Origin: Alphaproteobacteria bacterium
Lineage (GTDB): Bacteria > Pseudomonadota > Alphaproteobacteria > Caulobacterales > Maricaulaceae
DNA length: 45,000 bases
Direction: 5' to 3'
Assembly (NCBI GenBank): GCA_024742735.1
Contig: JANSXV010000009.1
Span: 1-45,000 of the forward strand
Under the pieces are notes generated by a model that saw only the letters and a list, made by a program, of their open reading frames with translations, had not been told where the DNA came from and made no database searches. This document shows, one piece after another, positions 1-45,000 of the stretch (the stretch's first letter is position 1; each line of letters opens with the position of its first letter). Made by a program: the position numbers and the translations under genes.

Positions 1-141
1 CAGCAGCCGGTGCATTACGATTTCCGCGCCCGCCGCGACACGCCCAACGAGCTGCGCGCCTATTTCCGCAAGCTCGGCTGGCGCAAGGTCGTGGCCTTCC
101 AGACCCGCAACCCGCTGCACCGCGCGCACCAGGAACTGACC
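1..141. repeat. Terminal direct repeat (circular overlap), left copy
   Basis: Bases 1-141 match 44860-45000 with no mismatch found on direct comparison, in the same orientation. The Sat-CysC frame runs through the join without a break (159 codons before, 411 residues after), as expected if the window wraps round a 44,859-bp circle rather than holding a true duplication. Confidence 0.95.
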
Positions 142-1236
142 TTCCGCGCCGCCAAGGAGGTGCAGGCCAACCTCTTGATCCATCCCATCGTCGGTCTGAC
201 CAAGCCCGGCGATATCGACCATTTCACCCGCGTGCGCTGCTATGAGGCGGTGCTGGACCAGTACCCGTCCGCCACCACCACGATGAGCCTGCTGAATCTG
301 GCGATGCGCATGGCCGGCCCGCGCGAGGCGGTCTGGCACGGGCTGATCCGCAAGAACCACGGCTGCACCCATTTCATCGTCGGGCGCGACCATGCCGGCC
401 CGGGCAGCAACAGCGCGGGCGAGGATTTCTACGGCCCCTACGAGGCCCAGGATCTGTTCCGCGAGTACCAGGACGAGATGGGCATCGAAATGGTGCCCTT
501 CAAACACATGGTCTATGTCCAGGACCGCGCCCAGTACGAGCCCGCCGACGAGATCAAGGACAAGGACGACGTCACGATCCTGAACATCTCGGGCACCGAG
601 CTGCGCCGCCGTCTGTCCGAAGGGCTGGAGATCCCGGAATGGTTCTCCTTCCCGCAGGTGGTGGCCGAGCTGCGCCGCTCGCGCCCGCCGCGCGCGCAAC
701 AGGGCTTCACCGTCTTCTTCACCGGCTTTTCCGGCTCGGGCAAATCCACCATCGCCAACGCGCTCATGGTCAAGCTGATGGAGATGGGCGGGCGCCCCGT
801 CACGCTTCTGGATGGTGATTTGGTGCGGAAAAACCTCAGCTCCGAGCTGGGCTTTTCCAAGGAGCACCGGGACCTCAACATCCGCCGCATCGGCTATGTC
901 GCCAGTGAGATCACCAAGAATGGCGGCATCGCGATCTGTGCGCCGATCGCGCCCTATGCCACCACCCGGCGCGCGGTGCGCGAAGAGATCGAGCAGTTCG
1001 GCGCCTTCATGGAGGTCCATGTCGCGACCTCGATCGAGGAATGCGAACGCCGCGACCGCAAGGGGCTCTACAAGCTCGCGCGCGAAGGCAAGATCAAGGA
1101 ATTCACCGGCATCTCGGACCCCTATGACGTGCCCGAAACCCCTGAGCTGCGGCTCGACACCGAACAGGTCGAGGTCGATTACTGCGCCCAGCAGGTGCTG
1201 CTGAAGCTCGAGAGCATGGGGCTGATCGCGGCCTGA
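1..1236 (+). CDS. Bifunctional sulfate adenylyltransferase / adenylylsulfate kinase (C-terminal 411 residues; gene continues from 44383)
   Basis: This is the 3' part of a gene whose 5' part lies at 44383-44859 of the circle; joined, it encodes 570 residues, a normal length for the Sat-CysC fusion. It makes APS from sulfate and ATP, then phosphorylates APS to PAPS, the sulfuryl donor for sulfotransferases. The ATP sulfurylase part shows [11 protein letters not shown] near residue 34 of this segment (the QxRNPxHxxH nucleotide-binding motif) and [11 protein letters not shown] near residue 129. The APS kinase part begins near residue 230 with the P-loop GFSGSGKST (242-250) and the DGD/RKNL region. 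The reading frame is open from base 1. With three sulfotransferases on the same replicon, and no assimilatory sulfite/PAPS reductase seen, the PAPS is more likely used for polysaccharide sulfation than for cysteine synthesis (inference). Confidence 0.95.
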
Positions 1237-1402: not shown

Positions 1403-2383
1403 ATGACCGACCCCTCCGTCTCGCAGCGCGCTGCCGATACGTCCGAGCTGACGGTGATCATCGTCAGCTACAACACCCGTGCCCTGACGCTGAAATGCCT
1501 TGAGACGCTCTATGCCACGACCCGGCGGACGCGGTTTCACACGGTCGTCTTCGACAATGACAGCCAGGATGGCAGCGCCGAGGCCGTGGCGGAGGCCTTT
1601 CCCCAGGTGGAGCTGATACGGTCGCCCGAAAATCTGGGCTTCGCGAAGGCCAACAATGTCGTCGCGACCCGGGCCACCACCGAGTGGCTCTTGCTGCTCA
1701 ATCCCGACACGGAGGTCCATGAGGGCGCCGTCGACAGCCTGCTGGACTTCGCCAAGGCCCATCCCGAGGCCGGCATCACCGGCGGGCGGACGGTCTTTCC
1801 CGATGGCTCACTCAACGCCGCCTCCTGCTGGGCGCGGATGACGCCCTGGTCGATGACCTGCCAGGTGCTGGGGCTTGCCGCGGCCTTTCCCCGGTCCTCG
1901 CTCTTCAATCCCGAGGGCATGGGCGGCTGGGCGCGCGACAGCGAGCGCGCGGTCGATATCGTGGTCGGCTGCTTTCTGATGATCCCGCGCGCCCTGTGGG
2001 AGGAGCTGGGCGGGTTCAACCTGAAATATTTCATGTATGGCGAGGAAAGCGATCTGTGCCTGCGGGCGGCGCGCCTGGGCTACCGGCCGCGGATCACGCC
2101 GGAGGCCGAGATCATGCATCTGGTGGGCGCCTCGGCCGCCACCCGGTCGGACAAGGCAGTGCGGGTCGCCAAGGCGCGCACCACGCTGGTGCGCGACCAC
2201 TGGCCGGCCTGGCAGCAGCCCTATGCGCATCTGTGCTTCTGGCTCTGGATCGCCGGGCGCCGGACGGTGAGCGCGGCCCTGGCCCTGCTGCCGGGGCAGG
2301 CGCACAAGGAACGGGCGGCGCGCTGGAAAGCGATCTGGCAGGCGCGGCAGGACTGGATGGAAGGATATCACGATGCAGCCTGA
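1403..2383 (+). CDS. GT2 family glycosyltransferase (WbbL/rhamnosyltransferase-like)
   Basis: A 326-residue GT-A fold transferase. The N-terminal half has LTVIIVSYNTR (17-26), ENLGFAKANN (76-85) and the metal/nucleotide-sugar site LLLLNPDTE (96-104), all typical of the WbbL-like GT2 subgroup that often transfers deoxyhexoses. Further on, GEESDLCLRAARLGYR is the usual acceptor-side ED motif. No membrane segment is obvious, so it should act on the cytoplasmic face of the membrane, adding a sugar to a lipid-linked repeat unit. It lies 166 bp downstream of sat-cysC and overlaps the next gene by 11 bp, suggesting one transcript. Donor and linkage cannot be read from sequence; fucose, galactose or a uronic acid are all supplied by plasmid enzymes. 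Confidence 0.88.
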   Translation: MTDPSVSQRAADTSELTVIIVSYNTRALTLKCLETLYATTRRTRFHTVVFDNDSQDGSAEAVAEAFPQVELIRSPENLGFAKANNVVATRATTEWLLLLNPDTEVHEGAVDSLLDFAKAHPEAGITGGRTVFPDGSLNAASCWARMTPWSMTCQVLGLAAAFPRSSLFNPEGMGGWARDSERAVDIVVGCFLMIPRALWEELGGFNLKYFMYGEESDLCLRAARLGYRPRITPEAEIMHLVGASAATRSDKAVRVAKARTTLVRDHWPAWQQPYAHLCFWLWIAGRRTVSAALALLPGQAHKERAARWKAIWQARQDWMEGYHDAA

Positions 2384-4244
2384 GGCCCCCGCCCACAAGT
2401 CCCGCCTGAGCGGCCCGGCCCGCGCCCTGCGGCTGCTGGGATCAATGTTCGATCCGCGCGCCTGGGCGCATATGCTCAAGATCGTCAATTACTACAACTA
2501 TTCCCATGTCCAGCCGATGCGCCAGCTGCGCCCCGGCCCCGGCGGCGCCATCAGCCCGAACGCGTTCTTCTCCTATCCCGAGCGGATCGAGATCGGCGAC
2601 CGGGTCCGGATCTCGGCCCGCTGCCATATCTGGGCGGGTCCGTCGCGCGGGCGCATCGTGCTGTCCGACGATGTGCTGATTGCGCCGGAAGTGATGATGA
2701 CCGCGGCAAACTACCGGTTCAACGACGGCCAGCCGGTCAATGACCAGCCCATGGACGAGGCCGACATCATCGTCGGAAAGGATGTCTGGATCGGCTATGG
2801 CGCGGTGATCCTGCCCGGCGCCCGGATCGGCGCGGGCGCGATCATCGGCGCGGGCACGGTGGTGCGCGGCACGGTGGAACCCTTTGCCATCATCTCGGCC
2901 TCCGAGGCCAGCCGCCCGGTGGGGCGCCGGGTGCTGGCCGGTGCCGCCGTGACCCTGGATGCGGGCGCCAACCCGGCGGTGGCCGAGATCGTCGCCCGTG
3001 AGACGCCCCAGATCGCCGCCGCGCGCCGGGCCGGGCCGCTCGATGCCTCGGGCATCGACAGTTTCGATCTGATGACCCTGCGCGCGGCCATCGAATCCGC
3101 CACCGGGCTGCGGGTGTCCGATGCCGAATGGGGCGGGCTCGGCAGCCTCGACGATATCGCCCGGCTGCCGTCGCTGGCGGGGGCTGTGGCGGGGACAGGT
3201 ACCCTCCCGCCCCCGGCGCCCGGGCCGGCCATCGTCGCGCCCCCGCCACAAAACCTGTCACAGACCCAGCCGCAACCGCAGCCGCTCGCCCAGGCGGCCG
3301 CCATCGCCCCGCCCTCCGGAGCCATCGATCCGCCGCCGCCGCCGCCGGAGATCCCACAGGACCGCTTCACGCAGCTGACCCACGATCTGCCCGCCGGCAT
3401 GCCGGCGTCGATGGTCGAAAGCCGCCGCCCGGGCCATCTGCACCGCCGCCACCTGCTGGAGATGCCGAAGATGGCGCTGGCGGGGATGGGCGAGCCCTGG
3501 CTGTTCCGCGAGCTCGGCGATCTGCACTGGATGCTGATCCTCGATTTCCTGCAGCGCGCCTCCAGCCAGGTGACCGACGATCAGGGCGACCGGCTCTATG
3601 CCACGATCACCCGTTGCAAGATCGACTTCACGCCCAGTCTGTTCGCGTTCAAGGAAAACACGCCGCTCGACATCCGCTCCCATCTGGAGCGCTACGGCGC
3701 GGCGGTGTTTTTCTCCCAGAACGCGTTCGAGGGCATGCCGGGCATATCGGGCCACGCGACGGTCATGTCGACCTTTGCCAAATACGGCGAGCGCGGCAAG
3801 AACACCTCGCTGGTCAAGGGCACGCCGCCGCTGCCGATCCCCGAGGCGGTGCCGCCGATGGAGAAGATCTCCGAGTTCGGCTATGCCTACCGTGCGCGCC
3901 GCGCCGAGCCGCCCTATGACACCGTGCTCTACGAAACCGAATACGAGATCCAGGCCCCCCATGACATCAACGGGGTGGGACTGCTCTATTCGGCGGCCTA
4001 TCCGATGATCTACGATCTCTGCCTGGAGCGGTTCGAGGGCAAGGGCTTCCTGCGGGAGCACTCCACCCAGTCCAAGGATCTGTTCTACTTCGCCAATTCC
4101 GAACCTTCCGAGACGCTGCTTTTCCGCGTCCATGAGCGCGAGGATCTGGGCGGGGGGCGGATCCGCCATGTCTGTTCGCTGTCGCGGAAATCCGATGGCG
4201 CGCGGATGGGCGAGATGACCGGCATCAAGATCAATGTCGCCTGA
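2373..4244 (+). CDS. Fusion protein: hexapeptide-repeat acyltransferase - acyl carrier protein - LnmK-like acyltransferase/decarboxylase
   Basis: A 623-residue three-part protein. Residues about 60-185 are a left-handed beta-helix acyltransferase of the sugar O-acetyltransferase type (RIEIGDRVRI, DVWIGYGAVILPGARIGAGAIIGAGTVV spread over 136-164). Residues about 222-270 look like an acyl carrier protein: ASGIDSFDLMTL places Ser230 where the phosphopantetheine serine normally sits, followed by the expected amphipathic helices. A Pro/Gln-rich linker (275-330) leads to a C-terminal ~290-residue domain (331-623) that resembles the LnmK / Pnap_2097 family of double-hotdog enzymes; LnmK of leinamycin biosynthesis loads methylmalonyl onto an ACP and decarboxylates it. 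Inference: the LnmK part charges the tethered ACP and the beta-helix part passes the acyl group to the polysaccharide. The start has AAGGA about 8 bp upstream. The genes on both sides are GT2 transferases with overlapping ends. Confidence 0.72.
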   Translation: MQPEAPAHKSRLSGPARALRLLGSMFDPRAWAHMLKIVNYYNYSHVQPMRQLRPGPGGAISPNAFFSYPERIEIGDRVRISARCHIWAGPSRGRIVLSDDVLIAPEVMMTAANYRFNDGQPVNDQPMDEADIIVGKDVWIGYGAVILPGARIGAGAIIGAGTVVRGTVEPFAIISASEASRPVGRRVLAGAAVTLDAGANPAVAEIVARETPQIAAARRAGPLDASGIDSFDLMTLRAAIESATGLRVSDAEWGGLGSLDDIARLPSLAGAVAGTGTLPPPAPGPAIVAPPPQNLSQTQPQPQPLAQAAAIAPPSGAIDPPPPPPEIPQDRFTQLTHDLPAGMPASMVESRRPGHLHRRHLLEMPKMALAGMGEPWLFRELGDLHWMLILDFLQRASSQVTDDQGDRLYATITRCKIDFTPSLFAFKENTPLDIRSHLERYGAAVFFSQNAFEGMPGISGHATVMSTFAKYGERGKNTSLVKGTPPLPIPEAVPPMEKISEFGYAYRARRAEPPYDTVLYETEYEIQAPHDINGVGLLYSAAYPMIYDLCLERFEGKGFLREHSTQSKDLFYFANSEPSETLLFRVHEREDLGGGRIRHVCSLSRKSDGARMGEMTGIKINVA

Positions 4245-4254
4245 GGCCGCGGCG

Positions 4255-5127
4255 ATGACCCTGCCCCGCGCTGCCGTCATCATCCCGCATTACAACGATC
4301 TGGAACGGCTCGGGAAATGCCTCGATGCGCTGGCGCCGCAGGTGGCCGCGGCGGGCGATGCGGTCGAGGTGATCGTGGCCGACAATGGCTCGCCCTGCGA
4401 CATGGGTCCGGTTCAGGCCGCGTATCCCTGGGTGCGCCTCGTCACCGAGACCGAGAAGGGGGCGGGCCCCGCGCGCAATCGCGGTGTCGCGACAAGCCGC
4501 GCGCCCTGGCTGTGTTTCATCGATTCCGATTGCATCCCGGAGCCGGGCTGGCTGGCCATGGCGCTTGCGCTGGCCGGCAGCGCCGATGTCATCGGCGGGC
4601 GGGTCGATACGTTCGACGAGACCCCGCATCCACGCTCGGCCGCGGAGGCGTTCGAGACGGTCTATGCTTTTCACCAGAAGCATTACGTCGAGAACCGGGG
4701 CTTTTCGGTCACCGCCAACATGCTGACCGCGCGCGCGGTGTTCGAGGATGTGGGCGGGTTCCGCAACGGCTATCCGGAGGATATCGACTGGTGCCACCGG
4801 GCGCGCGCGAAGGGCTACGCGCTGGTCTATGCCGACGACCTGGCGGTGGCGCATCCCACGCGGCAGGACTGGCCGGCTATGGCGCGCAAGATGCGCCGGC
4901 TGACCGCCGAGCGGTTGACGCTCTTCGGCACCGGGCCGAAACGGCGGCTGCTCTGGGCGGTGCGCGCGCTCCTGGTGCCGGGCTATGCGCTGGTCCAGGC
5001 GCCCCAGGCGCTGCGCCATCCCGGGCTCAGCGCGCGTGAACGGCTGTCGGCGCTGGCCATGCTGGCGCGGATCACCGGGCTGCGCATGGTCTGGATGTGG
5101 CGCCAGGCCCTCGGTCTGCCGATCTGA
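4255..5127 (+). CDS. GT2 family glycosyltransferase
   Basis: A 290-residue GT-A transferase. It has AAVIIPHYND (6-15) at the start of the Rossmann-like fold, VIVADNGS, GAGPARNRG (69-77) and the DxD-type metal site FIDSDCIPEPGW (88-99). The acceptor-side motif is GYPEDIDWCHRARAKGY. The C-terminal ~60 residues are hydrophobic and basic, consistent with peripheral membrane binding. The ATG at 4255 is preferred because GAGG lies 8 bp upstream; an in-frame ATG at 4234 would add seven residues and overlap the previous gene by 11 bp. As last gene of the sat-cysC/GT/fusion/GT run it probably adds another sugar to the lipid-linked repeat unit. The sugar specificity is not readable. Confidence 0.88.
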   Translation: MTLPRAAVIIPHYNDLERLGKCLDALAPQVAAAGDAVEVIVADNGSPCDMGPVQAAYPWVRLVTETEKGAGPARNRGVATSRAPWLCFIDSDCIPEPGWLAMALALAGSADVIGGRVDTFDETPHPRSAAEAFETVYAFHQKHYVENRGFSVTANMLTARAVFEDVGGFRNGYPEDIDWCHRARAKGYALVYADDLAVAHPTRQDWPAMARKMRRLTAERLTLFGTGPKRRLLWAVRALLVPGYALVQAPQALRHPGLSARERLSALAMLARITGLRMVWMWRQALGLPI

Positions 5128-5225
5128 GGGCGGCCCCGCTCCTTGACCTTGCCTCAAAACCCCCGATCCCGTCATATGCCGCCAGTTGATTGTTCCGGAT
5201 TCAGCAACGAAGGAATTTATGACCC

Positions 5226-5999
5226 ATGAACCGTTTTATCCTTCCCGCCTTTCTCGCTGTGACGACCCTTTTTGCCCTTGCGGCGCTTCGGCCGGCTGAG
5301 GCCGCCACCTTCCGCGTCTCCGAGACCTACCGTTTCGAGCTGTTCAATTTCAGCTTTGACGAGAATTTCTGGGCCGGAAGCTTTCCCGATCTCACCGATG
5401 CCGCGACCCCGGTGCCGATCGAACGCGTCACCATGAGCTTTCGGGCCGACTATCTCAGCCCGGTCGCCACGGCGCTGAAATTCCGCCCGAACGCCGCAGT
5501 CGAGATCGCCTTTCTCGATTTCGAGATGGTGACCCGCGATGTGCCCGGCCTGTCGGTGGCGCAAACCCTGGGCCTGGCCGATCTGACCTCTCCGCAGTTC
5601 GTGGTGAGGCCGGACCGGGATGGCAAAACGGTGCTGGTGCTCGGCGGTACGCTCACCGGGGGCGGCGTCAGCCACAGGTTCGGCGCCAGACTGCCCGATC
5701 TGGAGCTCCTGGCCCGGGGCAGCGAGGGGCTGGGCGCCACGTTCTCGGTATTCTTCGACAGTCTGAAGTCCTTCGATGCGCCGGACTATATTGTGCGCGG
5801 CAACCGCGTCGACCTGGTCGGCGGCGTGCAGCAAGAGACGTGGCAAACCACGCTGCTGTCCCAGAGCGCTGTCCCCGCCCCGGTGCCGCTGCCCGCGGCC
5901 GGGCTGATGCTGGCCGGCGCGCTGGCGGGGCTGGGTGCCGCGGCCGCCCGGCGGACCCGGGCGCCGCTGACGGCCTGCCCTACAGGGGAAGATCGCTGA
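5226..5999 (+). CDS. VPLPA-CTERM surface protein
   Basis: A 257-residue predicted exported protein. It has an N-terminal signal peptide (MNRFILPAFLAVTTLFALAAL, cleavage probably after AEA), a beta-rich body without recognised catalytic motif, and a C-terminal sorting signal: VPLPAAG at 220-226, a short hydrophobic segment, then RR. VPLPA-CTERM signals are known from Rhodobacteraceae, where a dedicated exosortase processes them; such proteins tend to accompany polysaccharide genes. The tail after RR is longer than usual (about 17 residues) and its last 20 bp overlap the 3' end of the opposing beta-helix gene, so the extension may be recent read-through into that gene. GAAGGA lies about 10 bp before the start. 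The function of the mature domain is unknown. Confidence 0.8.
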   Translation: MNRFILPAFLAVTTLFALAALRPAEAATFRVSETYRFELFNFSFDENFWAGSFPDLTDAATPVPIERVTMSFRADYLSPVATALKFRPNAAVEIAFLDFEMVTRDVPGLSVAQTLGLADLTSPQFVVRPDRDGKTVLVLGGTLTGGGVSHRFGARLPDLELLARGSEGLGATFSVFFDSLKSFDAPDYIVRGNRVDLVGGVQQETWQTTLLSQSAVPAPVPLPAAGLMLAGALAGLGAAAARRTRAPLTACPTGEDR

Positions 6000-8697
6000 T
6001 CCAGCCGTCCGGTTCAGGGTCGAACTGGAACCTGTCCATCTGGACCTCCGCATCGAGAGACCAGGGGTCACTGCCGAGCCGCAGGTCCGAGATCGTGCCG
6101 TCGAAATAGCCCGTCCAGGCGCCGCCGATCATCCATTGCGACGCCCCGCTGCCATCCTGCCGGGTCAGTTGGACATCGTCCTCGGTGCTTGAGAACACCA
6201 GGACATCGTCGACGATCAGCTGCACCAGGTCGGTCTCTTCGTTGACATGGGCCATGATCTCATGCCGGTCGGTGTCGTTCAGGCCCAGATCGTCGATCCT
6301 GTATTGCTTGAAACTGCCATCGGCGAGACCGACCCGCAGGCTGAGCCCGTCATCCTTGGCGTCGATCGCGATGTTGTGGTGGTTCCAGATCAGCCGCGCA
6401 TAGGACCCATCTGCGATGTCGCGCTGATAGGCGAAACTCACCGTTGTTTGGGCCTCCAGCGCGGTGGCCGCACCGCCATCGAGAAAGGCCCAGCCGTCCC
6501 GCCCGGCGAGTTCCAGCGATCCGTCGGCGGCGTCGAACAGTGCCCCGCCCCAGAGCGTCAGGGCCTCCGGATCCTCCGCCAGCGCCTCGGCAAGATCGAA
6601 ATCGAACGCCATGGGGCGGGGCGGCGGGCCGAGCGGTGCCTCCGGGGTCGGTGTGTCGCGATCGAGCGACGCAAACTGGTTTTCATTGGCGCTCAGGCGC
6701 AACTCTCCGATCTGACCGGTAAAGCCGATCCCGGCCTTGAACGGGTCGCCGAGGATCATTCCGCGGCCCTCGATCCCGCCGATATGCCCGGCCACCGGTG
6801 CTTCGTCCTGGACGACCCCGTCGATGCTCAGGCGCAGCATCCCGCCGGAGAACTGGACCGAGATATCGGCCCAGTCCCCGTCGCGCAGCGCATCCTCGGC
6901 GCGCAAAACGGTTTGCTTCTCGCCCTCCGGCGAGAGGCGGAAGGTGAGGCTGCCATCGGGTCTCACGGCCATCGAGAAGGCCGTGTGCACGCGCAGAACC
7001 TCTCCGGCCCCGCTTGCCCAGTCTGCCGAATAGAGGCTGAGATCGAGCCGGAAATCCTCCGCCCCGGCGAGGGCCGCGACGGCGTCCGGCGCGATTTTGG
7101 CCTTGTCGGCATGATCGTCGAAAACGAACAGGCCCGTGCCGGTGCTGTAGGCGCCCTTGAACACCACCGGCAGGTCACCATCGGCACTCAGCTCGAACAG
7201 CTCCGGTTGCAGGACCTCGACCCGTGTCGTCGTGCGGTCGATGCTGCCATCGGGGGCGGTCACGGTCAGCGTGACCGTGTAGAGGCCCGGGGCGCTGTAG
7301 CTGTAGCTCGCGTCCGGTCCGGTGGCGGTCTGGCCGTTTCCGAAATCCCAGTGATAGAGCGCATCGGCGCCCAGCGGGCCGTCGGGCCCGGCGCTGAATT
7401 CCGACGAGAAATCGAAGCGCGCCCAGTTATCCTCGGTGCGTTCGCTCTGGATCAGGGCGGTCAGCACCTCCGGGGTGGGGTCATAGGCGAGCACCGGCGC
7501 CCCCTTGCCCTCCAGGTCGAGCGGGCTGTCCGGGCGCAGCTGGATATTGGCCAGATCGCTGCGCGTGCCCTCGGCGGGATTGATGAAGACATCGCCATAC
7601 CAGCCCGGCGCGTCGCGGTCCTCGTCCTGGACGAAGAGATTGCCGTCGATCTGCCAGTCGGACCCTTCCAGCGCCCAGCCTTCGGGTTCGTTGAAGGTCG
7701 AGATGCCCGAAACGATATTGTCGAGGATCGTGACCCCGGTGCTGGTGCCGTCCAGTTCGATGCGCGGATTGGCCAGGATCCCGTCGATACCCGGCGCATC
7801 CTCGCGCAGGATGGTATTGTTTGCGATCAGCAGCCCGTCATAGGGCCCGCCCTTGATCCCGTGCTTGTGGGCGTTGACGATCACGTTGCCGGTGATCTGG
7901 ACATTCTTGTATTCCATGTCCGCCATCCCGTCCTCGGTGACGGCGCGGTTGGACATGAAGATCGACTGGGTGTGCAGGTCGCCCTCGCCCAGCACCATGA
8001 CATTGTCGCGGATGATGATGTTCTCGGTCTGGGTCTTGGTGTTGTCGGTCCAGAACTGGATCATGTCGCGATGGTCGCTCGCATCCGGCGGCGCATCGAA
8101 ATCATGCATGTAGTTCTTTTCGATCAGCAGGTTCCTGGCCTCGGCGACGTTGAGATGGTCCATCCGCTGGTTGTGAAACTCGTTGCCGCTGACGATCCCG
8201 TCGCGGATCTGGCTGATCTGCAACCCGCGGGCGAAGCCTTCGAATTCGTTGTTCTCCACGGTCAGCCCGTCGACATTGCGCACATGCAGGCCCCGGCCAT
8301 TGCCGTAGCCCGGCGTGCCGTTGACGGTGTCGGGATCGGCCCCGATGGCGCGGTCGCCGTCGAAATGGCTGTCGCGGATCGTGACATCGGCGCTGTTGCG
8401 GACCGCAAAGGGCGAGGTGTGCAACCAGTGATCGCCCTGGGTATAGGTGTAATCGAAGGTGATGCCTTCGAATGTCAGCCCCTGCACACCGCCCAGGGAC
8501 ATGCCGGTCAGAACGGCGGGGGCGTCGGGGTCGGCCGAGCGGATGGTGACCGGCGTGTCGAAGCCGATCCCGTCCTGCCGGCTGATCTCGAGCCGGTCAT
8601 AGGTTCCGGGTGCGAGCTCTATGACATCGCCGTCTGTCGCTGTCTGGAGCGCAGTGCGAAGCTCGTCCGTGGACGAGACCGAAAATACCTGAAACAT
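5980..8697 (-). CDS. Large right-handed beta-helix protein with PKD and LamG-like domains
   Basis: A 905-residue protein starting at MFQVFSVSS; a 24-codon upstream extension looks less protein-like. Residues 1-400 form a parallel beta-helix of the pectate-lyase/chondroitinase type, with the opening APGTY and repeated NV/NT turns. It contains SDHRDMIQFW (207-216) and HTQSIF (242-247), shared with the beta-helix protein at 40781-43099. Residues 425-497 form a PKD domain (YHWDFGNGQTATG, followed by PGLYTVTLTVT). Residues 500-905 hold two concanavalin/LamG-like regions. There is no signal peptide, as in type I-secreted beta-helix enzymes, but no RTX repeats are present, so the export route is unclear. 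Likely a secreted polysaccharide lyase, hydrolase or epimerase, or a glycan-binding scaffold, acting on the plasmid-encoded polymer (inference). Its 3' end overlaps the VPLPA gene by 20 bp. Confidence 0.82.
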   Translation of the reverse strand: MFQVFSVSSTDELRTALQTATDGDVIELAPGTYDRLEISRQDGIGFDTPVTIRSADPDAPAVLTGMSLGGVQGLTFEGITFDYTYTQGDHWLHTSPFAVRNSADVTIRDSHFDGDRAIGADPDTVNGTPGYGNGRGLHVRNVDGLTVENNEFEGFARGLQISQIRDGIVSGNEFHNQRMDHLNVAEARNLLIEKNYMHDFDAPPDASDHRDMIQFWTDNTKTQTENIIIRDNVMVLGEGDLHTQSIFMSNRAVTEDGMADMEYKNVQITGNVIVNAHKHGIKGGPYDGLLIANNTILREDAPGIDGILANPRIELDGTSTGVTILDNIVSGISTFNEPEGWALEGSDWQIDGNLFVQDEDRDAPGWYGDVFINPAEGTRSDLANIQLRPDSPLDLEGKGAPVLAYDPTPEVLTALIQSERTEDNWARFDFSSEFSAGPDGPLGADALYHWDFGNGQTATGPDASYSYSAPGLYTVTLTVTAPDGSIDRTTTRVEVLQPELFELSADGDLPVVFKGAYSTGTGLFVFDDHADKAKIAPDAVAALAGAEDFRLDLSLYSADWASGAGEVLRVHTAFSMAVRPDGSLTFRLSPEGEKQTVLRAEDALRDGDWADISVQFSGGMLRLSIDGVVQDEAPVAGHIGGIEGRGMILGDPFKAGIGFTGQIGELRLSANENQFASLDRDTPTPEAPLGPPPRPMAFDFDLAEALAEDPEALTLWGGALFDAADGSLELAGRDGWAFLDGGAATALEAQTTVSFAYQRDIADGSYARLIWNHHNIAIDAKDDGLSLRVGLADGSFKQYRIDDLGLNDTDRHEIMAHVNEETDLVQLIVDDVLVFSSTEDDVQLTRQDGSGASQWMIGGAWTGYFDGTISDLRLGSDPWSLDAEVQMDRFQFDPEPDGWISDLPL

Positions 8698-8988
8698 TGC
8701 AGCGCCATCTTTGGGACATGCAGTCTCATTGCGTGTCCGGCGCCCCCACAGCAGCGCGACCGGTATCACCGGGGTCTTTTTGAAAAGATTAACGGCCGCG
8801 CCGGAGCATCCCGTAACGGGTATGAAAATTCATCAGATTTTCCAGAACTTTCCCGCCGAAGGGCCGGCCCGGCGCTGCGGGCGAACCCCTTGGCCCGGTC
8901 CTGGGCGCCGGGGGCGCGCGGCCCCCTAATGGGCGGTTAACTGCGGTGAGAGCACTGTGCGGCCCGATCGCGAGAAGGGGAACTGGCC
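8698..8988. promoter_or_regulatory. Divergent intergenic region between beta-helix and SGNH/LamG genes
   Basis: 291 bp between two divergently transcribed genes for large extracellular proteins. It must hold both promoters. The stretch around 8775-8850 is distinctly richer in A/T than its surroundings and includes TTTTTGAAAAGATTAA and a TATGAAAATTCATC stretch; no clean -35/-10 pair could be assigned. The 3' part (8870-8940) is again very GC-rich. No gene is seen. Confidence 0.4.
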
Positions 8989-38582: not shown

Positions 38583-40454
38583 TCAGCTCCCCGGCAGCGC
38601 GGCCCAGTCCGCCACGAGTTGCGCCGCGGCCGGTTGGCCAAGATGGCTGGGATCGCGGAAGATCGCGTTGCCGGCCGCGTCATGGCCGGTGAAGCAGGCC
38701 CGGTCCCCGCAGCCCATGGCATAGAGCGCGCCGGCCTGGTCGATCACCTGCACCCCGGGCAGATGGGCAACCTCGGCCACCGTCCGGGCCCAGTCGGGAT
38801 GGGCGGCGAAATCCGTGGCCACGCCGATGCGCTCGATCTGCCCGGCCAGGGCGCTGCGCACCGGATCGGCGTCGAGCGTCGGCCGCGGCGCGAAAACGGT
38901 CACCTGCGGGCCGGCCTCGGCGATGCCGCGGACCAGATCGGCATAATCGAACAGCGCGCCGGCGCGGCGTTTCGGCTCCTCCTGTTCATAGAGGCCCGAA
39001 AAGCGGTTGAGCAGCAGCACATGGTCATAGGCGCCCCAGTCGGCCTCGGCCAGCGCGGCCTGGGCGCGGGCGCAATCCTCGCGCGCGCCATCGAGCCGCG
39101 TGTAGCGGCAGCCGGTATTGATCGCCAGATCGAGCCGCCAGCCCTGTGCCCGTGCCATCGCCTGCAGCGGCAGGATCAGATCCTGGGCATGGCTGTCGCC
39201 GACGAGCGCCACGCGCAAGACCGGATCGGGCGGATCGACCAGCCGGCAGAGCGCCGTGCAGCTCTGCCAGTCCGTGCCGTGGCTGGGGAAATTGGGTTTG
39301 GCCACAGAGGCATAGTAGTCGGCGGGCAGATGCGATGCGGCCGGCCGGCCCGCCGCCCCGAGGCTCAGATGCAGCGCCAGACCGAGCCCCGCGACCGCCG
39401 TCAGAACGCCGCCCGAGAGCGCCACCAGCCGGGCCGACGAAACGGTGCCGCGGCGCCGGAAAGGCGCCTCGATCAGGTGCAGCGACACCCAGCCCAGAAA
39501 GACCGACAGCGCCGCCAGCCCCAGCATCACCGCCGGTTCGGGATAATGGCCGAGCCGGACATGGGTGAAGGCGAAGAGCGGCTGGTGCCAGAGATAGGCC
39601 GAATAGCTCGCCAGCCCGACCCAGACGAAGGGACGCAGCGCCAGAAACCGTCCCGCCAGCGTGCTCGGGCCGGCATAGAGCAGGATGAGCGCCGTGCCGA
39701 GCACCGGCGGCACCGCCCAGAGCGACGGAAAGCGCAGGCCTTCATGCAGAAGCAGGATCGAGCCCACCACCAGCACCAGACCGGCTGCGGCCAGAGCACC
39801 GTTTTCACGCTGCGGGGCGCGGTGGTGGATCAGCGCGCAGAGCGCGCCGGCGCCGAGCTCCCAGGCGCGCGACGGCAAAAGGTAGAAATTCACCCCCGGA
39901 TCGATGCGGCTCAGCACCTCGGCGGTGGCCAGGCTGAGCCCCGAGATCGCGGCGATGATCCAGAACACCCGGCGCGGGCCGCTGCGCCAGATCAGCCAGA
40001 GCAGGATCGGAAAGAAGATGTAGAACTGCTCCTCGACGGCGAGCGTCCAGGTGTGCAGCAGCGGATATTCCGAGGTCTGGCCGGCGAAGTAGTCCTTGCC
40101 CCGGAAGAGGAAGTAGAAATTGGCTACGAAAAGGGCGGTGGCCAGCACGCTCTGGCCGTACCATTGCATCTCCAGCGGCGGCAGGATGTACCAGGCGGCC
40201 ACGGTCGAGACCGCGATCATCGCCACCAGCGCGGGCAGGATGCGCCGGGCGCGGCGTTCGTAGAAGCGCATCAGCGAATAGCGCCCCTCGGCCATCTCGC
40301 CGGTCAGGATGCGGGTGATCAGATAGCCGGAGATGACGAAAAAGATATCGACGCCGACGAAACCGCCCGAAAAACCGGCGATCTTCGCATGGAACAGGAT
40401 CACCGGAAGAACGGCGAAGGCCCGCAGCCCGTCGATCTCAGCCCGGTAGCGCAT
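38583..40454 (-). CDS. OafA/YrhL-type membrane acyltransferase with C-terminal SGNH domain
   Basis: A 623-residue protein. Residues 1-~370 are a ten-helix acyltransferase 3 domain: YRAEIDGLRAFAVLPVILFHA with the catalytic His, GGFVGVDIFFVISGYLIT and RFYERRARRILPAL are the classic motifs. The C-terminal periplasmic part is an SGNH domain with LRVALVGDSHAQDLI (Ser nucleophile) and DPSHLGQPAA (Asp-x-x-His). OafA-like proteins O-acetylate surface polysaccharides, taking acetyl groups across the membrane and passing them to the SGNH domain. The start at 40454 has GGGGAT upstream and matches the family N-terminus. With the LbH-ACP-LnmK fusion it gives the plasmid two different acylation routes, one periplasmic and one cytosolic. 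Confidence 0.92.
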   Translation of the reverse strand: MRYRAEIDGLRAFAVLPVILFHAKIAGFSGGFVGVDIFFVISGYLITRILTGEMAEGRYSLMRFYERRARRILPALVAMIAVSTVAAWYILPPLEMQWYGQSVLATALFVANFYFLFRGKDYFAGQTSEYPLLHTWTLAVEEQFYIFFPILLWLIWRSGPRRVFWIIAAISGLSLATAEVLSRIDPGVNFYLLPSRAWELGAGALCALIHHRAPQRENGALAAAGLVLVVGSILLLHEGLRFPSLWAVPPVLGTALILLYAGPSTLAGRFLALRPFVWVGLASYSAYLWHQPLFAFTHVRLGHYPEPAVMLGLAALSVFLGWVSLHLIEAPFRRRGTVSSARLVALSGGVLTAVAGLGLALHLSLGAAGRPAASHLPADYYASVAKPNFPSHGTDWQSCTALCRLVDPPDPVLRVALVGDSHAQDLILPLQAMARAQGWRLDLAINTGCRYTRLDGAREDCARAQAALAEADWGAYDHVLLLNRFSGLYEQEEPKRRAGALFDYADLVRGIAEAGPQVTVFAPRPTLDADPVRSALAGQIERIGVATDFAAHPDWARTVAEVAHLPGVQVIDQAGALYAMGCGDRACFTGHDAAGNAIFRDPSHLGQPAAAQLVADWAALPGS

Positions 40455-40780
40455 GCGATCCCCGCCGGCCTGTGTTGTTGCGACGGTGCCCGGCAGGCTG
40501 CGATGCGCCTGCGGGTGTGCCCTGGTCCGGCCGCCCCGGCGCCGGATATGTCTGCGTTTGACACGTTCCCGGCCGGTACCGGGACGCAAAGCGTCGTCGG
40601 GTGTCACTCATGGCAAACGCGCCCATACCTGATCTTTAACAACTACGGCCCTTGGGTACGGCGCGGCGGCCCGTGGGGTCAATCCGTCCCGCCGCCGCAT
40701 GGGGGCGGGCTGCGCGTTTCTGAATCATCGGTCCGGTGTCATTGGCCCAACGTCATCGGCCCGGGCTCACAGGCGCGATG
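40455..40780. other. Intergenic region between OafA-like and beta-helix/RTX genes
   Basis: 326 bp with no supported gene; both flanking genes read on the minus strand. It contains one hairpin (GCGGCGGC at 40663-40670 and GCCGCCGC at 40691-40698, 20-nt loop) that could end transcription from the RTX gene, though without a T-tract. A slightly AT-richer stretch at 40620-40645 may belong to the OafA-like promoter. GTCATNGGCCC is repeated near 40740. Confidence 0.4.
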
Positions 40781-43099
40781 TCACAGGCCCAGGGTGAACA
40801 TGTCGCCCCCGAGATCGGTCAGGGTCAGCAGGCGCAGGCCGTCCGAAGACGCCAGCGCCATATCGGGACGGTCGTCCAGGGCCGCGAGATCCTCCGCGCT
40901 GTCCACGGTGATGGGGGTGCTGTCGAAGAAGCGCAGCAGCAGCGTGTCGCCTTCGGCGAAATCCAAATCGGCGATGCGGTGGGCATCGCCCTCCCGGGTA
41001 AAGCGCGCATCGATGATGAAGGTATCGGGCCCGGCCCCTCCGGTGGCGGTGTCGTTGCCGAACCGGAACAGGAACGCGTCGGCGCCGGCCGCGCCCGTGA
41101 AAACATCGTCGGCATCCGTGCCGGTGAGCTTGATCGGGAGCGTGCTGGTCGCGTTGCCTGAACCCTGCCCGTCCAGGTGCAGGGAGATCTCCATGCCATC
41201 GGAGTCCGTGAAGCGCAGCGTCAGCGCGTCGGTCCTTTCAACCGCCGAGACATCGTCGCGGGCGATCAGCGCATCGAGATCCGCCTGGTCGCGCACGACG
41301 ATATGTTTGCCGGTGAAGTTGCGCAGCAGCAGATAGTCGCCCCCGGCCATATCGAAATCCGTGATGGTGTGGCTGTCGCCGTCGCTGTGAAAGCGCCAGT
41401 CGAGAATGAACTGGTCGGCGCCTGCGCCGCCGGTCGCGATGTCCTCATCCTGCCGCATCAGGATCTTGTCGTCGCTGGCGGTGCCGATCAGCACGTCGGC
41501 GCCCTTGCCGCCGATGGTCGATACCCCCGGCACGACGGGGCTGACGGCGCCGTCTTCGATCTCGACCCCGCCAAGGGTCAGGCTCAGGTCCGGGCCGCTG
41601 CCGTCCGACAGGGTCAGCGTATCATCGGTGAGGGTTACGCCCGGCCTGGCGACGAACTCTGCCAGCGCGGCCTGGGAGGTGATCCGCACGTTGCCGCCGC
41701 CGAACCCGTTGATCACCAGCTGGTCGCCCTCGTCGAAATCGAGATCGGTGATCCGGTGGGCATCGGCCGCGCCGCGCCCGGCCCAGTCGATGGTGAACCG
41801 GTCGGCCCCGTAGCCGCCGGTGGCGGTGTCACTGCCCGATCTGAGCAGGATCTTGTCGTCGCCGCCAAGACCGCGCAGCAGATCATCGTCCCCGGTGCCG
41901 GAGACGGTGATCCCGAGCTGTGACGGATCGGTGCGCAGTGCTGCCAGAAGGGCCGCGACATCGACATTGCCCCAGTAATCGGGATCGGCCGGATCGAAGG
42001 ACAGGACGCGGAAATTCTCGATGGTGATGTTTTGCGCCGCCAGCCCCCCAGGATCGCGCGGCCCCAGGGTGTCGGCGCCGAAAAACGACACCGCCGCGTT
42101 GTTGACGACATGGAAATTCTCGCTCTCGCCGGTCAGCAGCAGCTTCGGGGTCCGGCTATTTTCCACATCCGTGCCGTTTGGCAGCAACAGGTTGCCGGCG
42201 ATCAGCCCGCCCTCGACATCGCCGATGCGGATCGCGTTGGGATGTCCGTTGAGGATCAGGTTGTTCAGAATGGCGAAGTTTTCCGCCGTCACCCCGGGGG
42301 CGGGGTTCTTCATATGTCCGAAGATCGACTGGGTTCCCGACCCTTGCGGCATCTCGAAGACATTGTCGGCGATGGTGACGTCCCGGATGCCTTCGGTCGC
42401 GTTGGCGGCCCAGTACTGGATCATGTCGGGATGTTCGTGGGTGACGGGATCGTAGGCGGGGTCGGAGGTGTCGAGCCAGGGGCGGAAATCCCGGAACGTG
42501 TTGCCGGTGATTTCCAGACCGTCGATATCGGTGAAGAACAGCCCCTCGCGCACATCGTGGATGTCGGTGTTCTCGATCACCACATCGCTGGATTTGATCA
42601 GGCTGATTGCGACCCGCACCTCGGCGATATCGCTGTTGCGCAGGGTGAATCCGTCGGTCTGGGCGACCCGCAGGCCGCCGGCGCGCGGGAAGCCCTCGAT
42701 CGGGTCGCGAAAGCTCTCGATGGCCGGATCGTAGGGATCGAAGCCTTCCTCGGCGGTGGCCAGATGGCCGCGCTGGACGATGTTCTCCAAGGTGACGTTG
42801 CTCGATTTGGAAAAGCCGACCCAGTAGGCATTGGCGCTGTCGCCGAGACTGTCGGCATCGAAGGTGACGTCGGAAATCGTCAGGTCGGACACGCTGCGCA
42901 TGTCGAACTTGTCGGTGAAGACCGCCGGATTGCCGGGATCCTCGGAGCGGATGGTGACCCCGGCAGCGTCCCAATCGGCCTCGTCGCCGAAATAGACGAA
43001 GCGCCCGTAGTCCCCCGGCGCAAGGAGGATCGTCTCGCCCCCGGTGGCGGCATCGAGTGCCGCGGTCAATTGCTCTACCGTCGATACTTCCATGATCAT
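40781..43099 (-). CDS. Right-handed beta-helix protein with triplicated RTX module
   Basis: A 772-residue protein. Residues 1-~395 form a parallel beta-helix close to that of the 5980-8697 protein (both begin with a ...LTAALDAATGGETILLAPGDY-like segment); it holds HEHPDMIQYW (221-230) and GTQSIF (255-260). Residues 399-772 consist of three ~115-residue repeats, each opening with degenerate calcium-binding RTX turns (GGDDKILLRSGSDTATGG; SDDKILMRQDEDIATGG; FGNDTATGG) followed by a HxITDxDxxxGDxLxL segment. There is no signal peptide; RTX repeats imply type I secretion. The layout resembles AlgE-type mannuronan epimerases (beta-helix A module plus R modules) without showing their catalytic motif. 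Probably a secreted lyase or epimerase acting on the exopolysaccharide (inference). Confidence 0.83.
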   Translation of the reverse strand: MIMEVSTVEQLTAALDAATGGETILLAPGDYGRFVYFGDEADWDAAGVTIRSEDPGNPAVFTDKFDMRSVSDLTISDVTFDADSLGDSANAYWVGFSKSSNVTLENIVQRGHLATAEEGFDPYDPAIESFRDPIEGFPRAGGLRVAQTDGFTLRNSDIAEVRVAISLIKSSDVVIENTDIHDVREGLFFTDIDGLEITGNTFRDFRPWLDTSDPAYDPVTHEHPDMIQYWAANATEGIRDVTIADNVFEMPQGSGTQSIFGHMKNPAPGVTAENFAILNNLILNGHPNAIRIGDVEGGLIAGNLLLPNGTDVENSRTPKLLLTGESENFHVVNNAAVSFFGADTLGPRDPGGLAAQNITIENFRVLSFDPADPDYWGNVDVAALLAALRTDPSQLGITVSGTGDDDLLRGLGGDDKILLRSGSDTATGGYGADRFTIDWAGRGAADAHRITDLDFDEGDQLVINGFGGGNVRITSQAALAEFVARPGVTLTDDTLTLSDGSGPDLSLTLGGVEIEDGAVSPVVPGVSTIGGKGADVLIGTASDDKILMRQDEDIATGGAGADQFILDWRFHSDGDSHTITDFDMAGGDYLLLRNFTGKHIVVRDQADLDALIARDDVSAVERTDALTLRFTDSDGMEISLHLDGQGSGNATSTLPIKLTGTDADDVFTGAAGADAFLFRFGNDTATGGAGPDTFIIDARFTREGDAHRIADLDFAEGDTLLLRFFDSTPITVDSAEDLAALDDRPDMALASSDGLRLLTLTDLGGDMFTLGL

Positions 43100-44382: not shown

Positions 44383-45000
44383 ATGTCGATGTCGACCTTT
44401 GCCCCCGTGCCCGAACTCTTCGTTTCCCCTGAAAGCGCGCAGAAACTCAAAGTCGAGGCCGGCACCATGGCCAGCTGGGATCTGACGGCCCGTCAGGTCT
44501 GCGATCTCGAACTTCTGATGAATGGCGGTTTCGCCCCGCTCAAGGGCTTCCTGTCCCAGGCCGATTACGAGGGCGTCGTGGACAACATGCGCCTGGCCGA
44601 TGGCAGCCTCTGGCCGATCCCGATCACGCTCGACGTCACGGAGGCGTTTTCGGAACTGGCCGAGCCCGGCACCGACATCGCGCTGCGCGACCCCGAGGGC
44701 GTGATCCTGGCGGTCATGCATGTCACCGACCGCTGGAGCCCCGACAAGGCCCATGAGGCCGAGAAGGTCTTCGGCGCCGACGACAGCGCGCACCCGGCGG
44801 TGAACTATCTGCACAACCAGGCCGGACCGGTCTATCTGGGTGGCCCGATCACCGGGTTGCAGCAGCCGGTGCATTACGATTTCCGCGCCCGCCGCGACAC
44901 GCCCAACGAGCTGCGCGCCTATTTCCGCAAGCTCGGCTGGCGCAAGGTCGTGGCCTTCCAGACCCGCAACCCGCTGCACCGCGCGCACCAGGAACTGACC
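44383..45000 (+). CDS. Bifunctional sulfate adenylyltransferase / adenylylsulfate kinase (N-terminal part; continues at base 1 of the circle)
   Basis: The 5' part of the gene completed at 1-1236. From ATG 44383 it encodes the PUA-like N-terminal domain of ATP sulfurylase ([17 protein letters not shown] is the family signature, followed by WPIPITLDV) and enters the catalytic domain, including [13 protein letters not shown] at the window end. The last 141 bases repeat the window start. A GTG three codons upstream (44374) is an alternative start; neither has a strong ribosome site. A 202-bp gap separates it from the upstream sulfotransferase; no gene or clear promoter was seen there. Confidence 0.93.
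44860..45000. repeat. Terminal direct repeat (circular overlap), right copy
   Basis: Same 141 bases as 1-141; see the left copy. Marks the point where the circular replicon closes on itself. Confidence 0.95.

Follow-up and report, generated by a model that had tools for sequence, protein, structure and literature searches.

LnmK of leinamycin biosynthesis (PDB 4hzn and 6x7l; TIGR04098) is a methylmalonyl-coenzyme A (CoA):acyl carrier protein (ACP) acyltransferase and decarboxylase. Passages of one study describe it as a double hot dog protein that decarboxylates via an Asn on a loop (PMC8666670), and passages of another have LrgK/LnmK feeding a beta-branching polyketide step (PMC9396626). Here we describe P0001, a protein in which an LnmK-type domain shares one reading frame with an LbH (hexapeptide) acyltransferase-type domain and an ACP-like carrier. 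It is encoded on an alphaproteobacterial plasmid, within a stretch of 45,000 nucleotides (Maricaulaceae; GenBank assembly GCA_024742735.1, contig JANSXV010000009.1, positions 1 to 45,000) that was analyzed as a whole and is hereafter called the window. P0001 resembles LnmK in its curated-family score, its profile match, two conserved residues, and a putative ACP partner; LnmK is a free enzyme, whereas the window's domain is fused to a carrier and a putative sugar acyltransferase.

Two other systems offer partial parallels. MadA/YiiD, a malonyl-ACP decarboxylase, likewise has a transferase-type domain on a tether, attached to a hot dog decarboxylase of acyl-ACP that uses a catalytic Asn loop; it differs in its single hot dog, in a GNAT instead of an LbH domain, in lacking a built-in carrier, and in its role of starting fatty acid synthesis (passages of PMC8666670). 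In the viosamine island of Pseudomonas syringae (vioB, vioS, vioR, and acp), an ACP-based acyl supply to a nucleotide sugar of a surface glycan has been proposed. There, by contrast, the genes are separate, KASIII and a reductase make hydroxybutyryl, no LnmK is involved, and the acceptor is an amino sugar (passages of PMC3927599).

Compared over its whole length, P0001 is closest to WP_148264532 of Roseobacter litoralis, annotated "Pnap_2097 family protein" (485 aa in the annotation, 487 in our reading) and encoded on the homologous plasmid pRLO149_63; this relative has no carrier domain. LbH sugar acyltransferases (i.e. LacA, WbbJ, WcaF, and AntD) share the hexapeptide repeat and the fold, while the window's domain has a Tyr at the position of the LacA His; to our knowledge, none of the four carries a fused carrier or LnmK domain.

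We find no description of an LbH-ACP-LnmK fusion in the literature searched, a coverage that leaves out most subscription journals. In passages of a review of AT3 acyltransferases (PMC9558356), propionyl is among the known glycan O-acyl groups, and the term "acyl carrier" is absent from those passages. An earlier annotation of the same DNA, made from its letters and open reading frames (the sequence-only reading), had been aware of no characterized polysaccharide enzyme built this way. This stands for the fusion itself, i.e. its parts belong to known families and the joined form appears to be new, and it needs qualifying for the principle, as carrier-based glycan acylation has already been proposed elsewhere (passages of PMC3927599).

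A single protein with three domains

The LbH-carrier-tether-LnmK architecture in one frame is confirmed (Table 1). Chance or a frame artefact is ruled out, and misassembly made unlikely, because the same three domains occur in the same order and in one frame at four other loci. The frame (2373-4244) and the domain searches bear out the coordinates, the Ser230, and the domain order given in the sequence-only reading. Its C-terminal domain is indeed of LnmK type, with a start that lies nearer residue 357 than the proposed 331.

The LnmK-type domain reaches 133.9 bits with TIGR04098 (LnmK), above the curated cut-off of 100, and a profile of 13 such domains matches the LnmK crystal structures at E = 1e-41. 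The likeness to LnmK/Pnap_2097 that had been noted earlier therefore holds for the first family and is incomplete for the second, since P0001 scores 116.9 bits with TIGR04099 (Pnap_2097), under its cut-off of 125. Among 8 LnmK-bearing relatives tested, all pass the TIGR04098 cut-off and 6 the TIGR04099 cut-off. Ten columns are invariant in the 13-row LnmK alignment, including Tyr84 and Asn208 (13/13 rows), which correspond to Tyr409 and Asn533 of P0001 and to positions 62 and 216 of LnmK (6x7l chain index). As such, P0001 keeps both the Tyr62 of LnmK, which we take to be catalytic, and the Asn of the NG loop.

AlphaFold models this domain poorly (pLDDT 50, from a 3-row alignment). LnmK entries take the first 7 places in a Foldseek search with this model (E = 1e-9 to 2.4e-7, TM 0.34-0.36, root-mean-square deviation about 15), matched at 18% identity, with FatA- and TesB-type thioesterases lower in the same list. 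The fold is thus assigned provisionally from the sequence profile, the model being too weak alone.

The carrier domain scores 20.2 bits with PF00550 (PP-binding), 0.6 short of the gathering cut-off of 20.8. A profile of 8 carrier segments (the window's, 6 others from LnmK fusions, and one encoded by a small gene of its own at locus L070) finds solved ACPs at E values down to 5e-10, and the D-S motif is invariant in 8/8 carriers. AlphaFold models residues 1-275 (pLDDT 78, 10-row alignment) with a helix at 230-244 that starts at Ser230, as helix II does in ACPs. Motif, profile, and helix together agree with the ACP-like segment around Ser230 that had been proposed from the sequence. For the N-terminal domain, the Hexapep model PF00132 gives 40.5 bits (cut-off 27), and the galactoside O-acetyltransferase 3ftt is a fold match at E = 3.8e-8, with AntD at rank 10.

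Recurrence of the fusion in genomes, plasmids, and phages

LnmK scans at the TIGR04098 cut-off, run over 6 overlapping genome draws, yield 12 distinct genomes. These amount to 1/137 genomes in the window's family, 1/398 in its order, 3/385 in the class draw, and 7/398 in the phylum draw and, around a second fusion-bearing genome (G762), to 3/119 in its family and 3/396 in its order. The family, order, class, and phylum draws each include the window's own genome (G000), and the phylum and both G762 draws include G762. With so few genomes over the cut-off in all 6 draws, LnmK as a general lineage gene is ruled out. Many matches below the cut-off (to E = 1e-3) fall chiefly on the C-terminal part of the profile and may be MadA/YiiD-type hot dogs.

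An LbH-ACP-LnmK frame is present in the window's genome, in G969 (L086, 599 aa), and in G1547 (L110, 553 aa). G762 has a 469-aa frame of the same type (L068, 3613-5022) that is cut short by a stop within the LnmK domain and may be a copy in decay. ACP and LnmK share a frame in G932 (L087), and a separate carrier gene adjoins the LnmK gene in G623 (L069) and G218 (L070). Thus 7 of the 12 genomes have a carrier joined to LnmK or next to it; in G526, a weak candidate directly follows LnmK (E = 0.002). The hidden Markov model (HMM) used in this search was built from 8 carriers, including that of L069 and not that of L070, so that the carriers used to build it match by construction and L070 is an independent match (E = 2.5e-11). 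Neighbors differ among these genomes. For example, the ACP-LnmK gene of G932 lies with genes for a capsule-synthesis protein, a Wzy-type ligase, a Gfo/Idh/MocA oxidoreductase, and an epimerase, the G1547 fusion faces a family 2 glycosyltransferase (GT2), and the neighbors in G218 are metabolic.

Viral scans with the LnmK alignment recover 2 IMG/VR contigs, L088 and L089, which as queries recover themselves alone; with P0001 as query, no viral match was confirmed, and the phages collection gave none. The first contig encodes an LbH-ACP-LnmK frame of 582 aa (4053-5801) along with an endolysin (phrog_7, 8e-61) and an integrase (phrog_1, 2e-46). On the second, LbH and ACP-LnmK are two genes that share 4 nucleotides (4243-5972), together with 3 baseplate wedge proteins. 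Both are phage or prophage DNA. The survey for the same fusion elsewhere, to which the sequence-only reading had pointed, thus returns 4 loci besides the window with the three domains in one frame, 1 of the 5 on a phage contig and 1 with the early stop. Phage-borne O-antigen acyltransferases are known, and these cassettes may have a similar role in receptor modification, i.e. they are possible receptor-changing genes after lysogeny.

In a plasmid search, 60 records match some part of P0001, 1 of them over 80% of the query; the records H1 and H14 were examined. The R. litoralis protein is 55% identical to P0001 in the LnmK domain and 51% in the LbH domain.

The LbH domains joined to these similar LnmK domains fall into 3 types: type I in the window and R. 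litoralis (51% identical), type II in G969 and the L088 phage (56%), and type III in G762 and G1547 (50%). Between types, LbH domains are 24-30% identical, compared with 40-51% for LnmK domains. The LnmK tree supports type I (100/100) and type III (99/96) and does not support type II (54/33). In the LbH tree, which is poorly resolved, supported branches force at least 2 changes between the fused and unfused state, with losses indistinguishable from gains. We read this pattern as more than one joining or exchange of LbH with ACP-LnmK; the alternative would be a single ancient fusion followed by faster change of LbH. The apparent repeated pairing of LbH with LnmK is the strongest argument that the two halves work together.

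A proposed acylation route and its alternatives

Our preferred reading, to which we give slightly less than an even chance, is that the fusion is a donor-plus-transferase enzyme that acylates a surface sugar. Judging from the architecture, a phosphopantetheinyl transferase would put 4'-phosphopantetheine on Ser230. By likeness to LnmK, the LnmK-type domain would then accept methylmalonyl or malonyl, i.e. a carboxyacyl group, from CoA, load it on the built-in carrier, and decarboxylate it. The product would be a propionyl- or acetyl-carrier, and the loss of CO2 would make loading irreversible. The architecture further suggests that the flexible tether brings the loaded carrier to the LbH domain, which would use the acyl group to decorate a sugar in the polysaccharide made by the plasmid's genes; the likely acceptor is a sugar on which the neighboring glycosyltransferase acts. 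The methylmalonyl-CoA could come from the mutase family, for which the host genome has 1 gene over and 1 under the cut-off; it also has 1 ACPS-family transferase. Both families are common, so their presence is weak evidence.

A carrier-bound route of this kind had been put forward in the sequence-only reading. It gains from the LnmK domain with its conserved Tyr and Asn, the carriers in 7 of 12 genomes, the 3 LbH types, the neighboring GT2, and the polysaccharide setting, and, as a universal one-protein arrangement, it loses from R. litoralis, where the carrier is absent. Propionyl as the acyl group is a guess.

Several further observations count against the preferred reading. The cargo might just as well be acetyl, or a group transferred without decarboxylation. 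PF18238 (LnmK_N_HDF, the Pfam model of the N-terminal hot dog) does not match P0001 at E = 0.1, another difference from LnmK. Because the same model matches L074 of G526 at 225 bits, the window's LnmK-type domain is, as judged by these profiles, a divergent branch of the family whose substrate need not be that of LnmK. The carrier HMM finds no carrier near LnmK in 4 of the 12 genomes (G187, G596, G611, and G649), and the neighbors of the G969 fusion look, by eye, like housekeeping genes. In R. litoralis, the closest relative, LbH and LnmK form a frame without a carrier, and on pRLO149_63 (L084; the plasmid only, without the chromosome) tblastn with 8 carriers gives nothing below E = 0.02 and the HMM a best E of 0.077.

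The remaining points concern the LbH domain. Its nearest relatives, 8 loci (L002-L009) matched over LbH alone at 49-64% identity, show neither LnmK nor a carrier of the window's type in up to 6 kb on each side (8/8; carrier HMM), although the DNA of L004 stops about 230 bases past the LbH match. Because of this, type I LbH can evidently do without LnmK and carrier. The window, R. litoralis, and 8/8 relatives also have a Tyr at the position of the LacA catalytic His, presumably His115; a His lies a few residues further on in L002, L004, and L005. AntD is not known to need a catalytic base. Loss of a LacA-type His through the fusion is ruled out, given that the Tyr is also found in the 8 relatives without LnmK. 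A Tyr aligned with the LacA catalytic His is, in its own right, a feature of this alphaproteobacterial LbH subfamily (L002-L009). The lack of a PF18238 match and the occurrence of GT2-LbH pairs on their own lowered our confidence in the mechanism from just above an even chance to just below it.

These pairs are informative about the acceptor. In 5 of the 8 relatives (L002, L006, L007, L008, and L009), the gene that ends just before LbH is a homologue of the GT2 upstream of the fusion (52-67% identical); L005 has a weaker one (28%) about 2 kb before LbH. The L002 frame, at 377 aa, is longer than LbH, and no other Pfam domain was found there. L003 is not a standalone LbH: it is a single 659-aa frame (4588-6567) joining LbH to a GT2 distantly similar to the window's (25%), an arrangement that mirrors the adjacent GT2 and LbH of the window. 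Given the conserved GT2 beside it, type I LbH is likely a glycosyltransferase partner with a sugar (glycan) as acceptor. Since such GT2-LbH relatives lack LnmK and carrier, ACP-LnmK seems to have been added in the window to a GT2-LbH pair that was already there and that may ordinarily draw on acyl-CoA itself as donor.

This bears on the alternative that the fusion merely co-localizes two independent activities, with LbH using acetyl-CoA and ACP-LnmK making an acyl-ACP for another enzyme in trans. The LbH relatives that lack carrier and LnmK and are kept with the same glycosyltransferase would fit it, as would an AT3-SGNH acyltransferase (PF01757) on the same plasmid. We nevertheless regard it as unlikely, as 3 LbH types are fused to ACP-LnmK and another accompanies it as an overlapping gene, which fits direct hand-over better.

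The LnmK-type domain might also act without decarboxylation, loading or (as a thioesterase) unloading another acyl group, e.g. intact malonyl or a hydroxyacyl of fatty acid synthesis, so that the group on the glycan would differ. The low identity to LnmK in the structure match, the thioesterases further down that list, and the PF18238 result lean this way; the retention of Tyr62 and the NG-loop Asn leans the other way, and we consider this quite improbable. Least probable, and in our view very doubtful, is a carrier that is a dispensable spacer while LnmK gives the acyl group directly, or via CoA, to LbH or its acceptor: the carrier-less R. litoralis protein would agree with this, but a spacer has no need of the D-S motif kept in 8/8 carriers, and R. 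litoralis, of which only the plasmid was searched, might rely on a carrier supplied in trans.

If the preferred reading of a donor-plus-transferase enzyme is true, it links the starter-unit chemistry of polyketides to the decoration of surface sugars in a single polypeptide, and glycan acyl groups would derive from methylmalonyl- or malonyl-CoA instead of the matching acyl-CoA. A broader and more tentative proposal, which we see as possible without expecting it to hold, is that an ACP-LnmK starter module has been joined repeatedly to different LbH domains, is mobile on polysaccharide plasmids and temperate phages, and delivers a carrier-bound acyl group (propionyl or similar) to glycans, in phages altering the receptor after lysogeny. 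The label "Pnap_2097 family protein" says nothing about function, and the present loci put concrete proteins behind it.

Plasmid context

Table 1. Coordinates of the fusion protein, its domains, and selected genes in the window
Feature	Position	Strand	Basis
LbH-ACP-LnmK fusion protein P0001, 623 aa	2373..4244	+	single open frame from ATG
N-terminal LbH (hexapeptide) acyltransferase-type domain, residues 1-195; Hexapep core 132-166	2373..2957	+	PF00132
ACP-like carrier domain, residues 204-263; Ser230 codon 3060-3062	2982..3161	+	PF00550, D-S motif, ACP profile
Pro/Gln-rich tether, residues about 275-357	3195..3443	+	sequence
LnmK-type domain, residues 359-615; Tyr409 codon 3597-3599, Asn533 codon 3969-3971	3447..4217	+	TIGR04098, PDB profile, residue equivalence
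Family 2 glycosyltransferase	1403..2383	+	PF00535 2.4e-20; 11-base overlap with fusion start
Family 2 glycosyltransferase	4234..5127	+	PF00535 6.3e-21; 11-base overlap with fusion end
Sulfate adenylyltransferase/APS kinase, 3' part	1..1236	+	NF004040
Sulfate adenylyltransferase/APS kinase, 5' part, gene crosses plasmid junction	44383..45000	+	junction-spanning gene

Bases 1-141 of the window are identical to bases 44860-45000, and the APS-kinase gene spans both ends. The repeated ends and the gene running across them show that the window represents a closed plasmid; it measures 44,859 bases and encodes RepA, ParA, and ParB. Its DNA matches Rhodobacterales-type plasmids and some others, such as those of Azospirillum. 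Matches to pRLO149_63 include the replication and partition proteins (RepA 67%, ParA 73%, and ParB 44%) as well as APS kinase (79-91%), GalE (44%), O-antigen ligase (40%), and AT3 acyltransferase (42%), and the GT2 downstream of the fusion is 52% identical to a GT2 of that plasmid. Passages of PMC3141670 call pRLO149_63 important for cell-envelope biosynthesis.

The window also encodes a GDP-mannose dehydratase, a UDP-sugar dehydrogenase, a NodZ-like fucosyltransferase, a flippase, and a sulfotransferase, a gene content that suggests a sulfated, fucose-containing polysaccharide. The polysaccharide setting noted earlier for the fusion is thus recovered in the window and, beyond it, in R. litoralis and G932. 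Since no aminotransferase is found among the 40 window frames scanned (a subset of all frames), O-acylation of the target is slightly more probable than N-acylation.

A second acylation system is present in the window, namely the AT3-SGNH acyltransferase (38583-40607, minus strand), which is the 42% match to pRLO149_63. Two large right-handed beta-helix proteins are encoded on the minus strand (5980-8769 and 40781-43099), one with PKD and laminin-G domains and the other with RTX-type repeats; beta-helix genes lie near the LbH-LnmK fusion of R. litoralis too. The window further encodes a protein with a VPLPA-CTERM sorting signal (5226-5999, plus strand), and pRLO149_63 carries the exosortase XrtD and 2 VPLPA-CTERM proteins.

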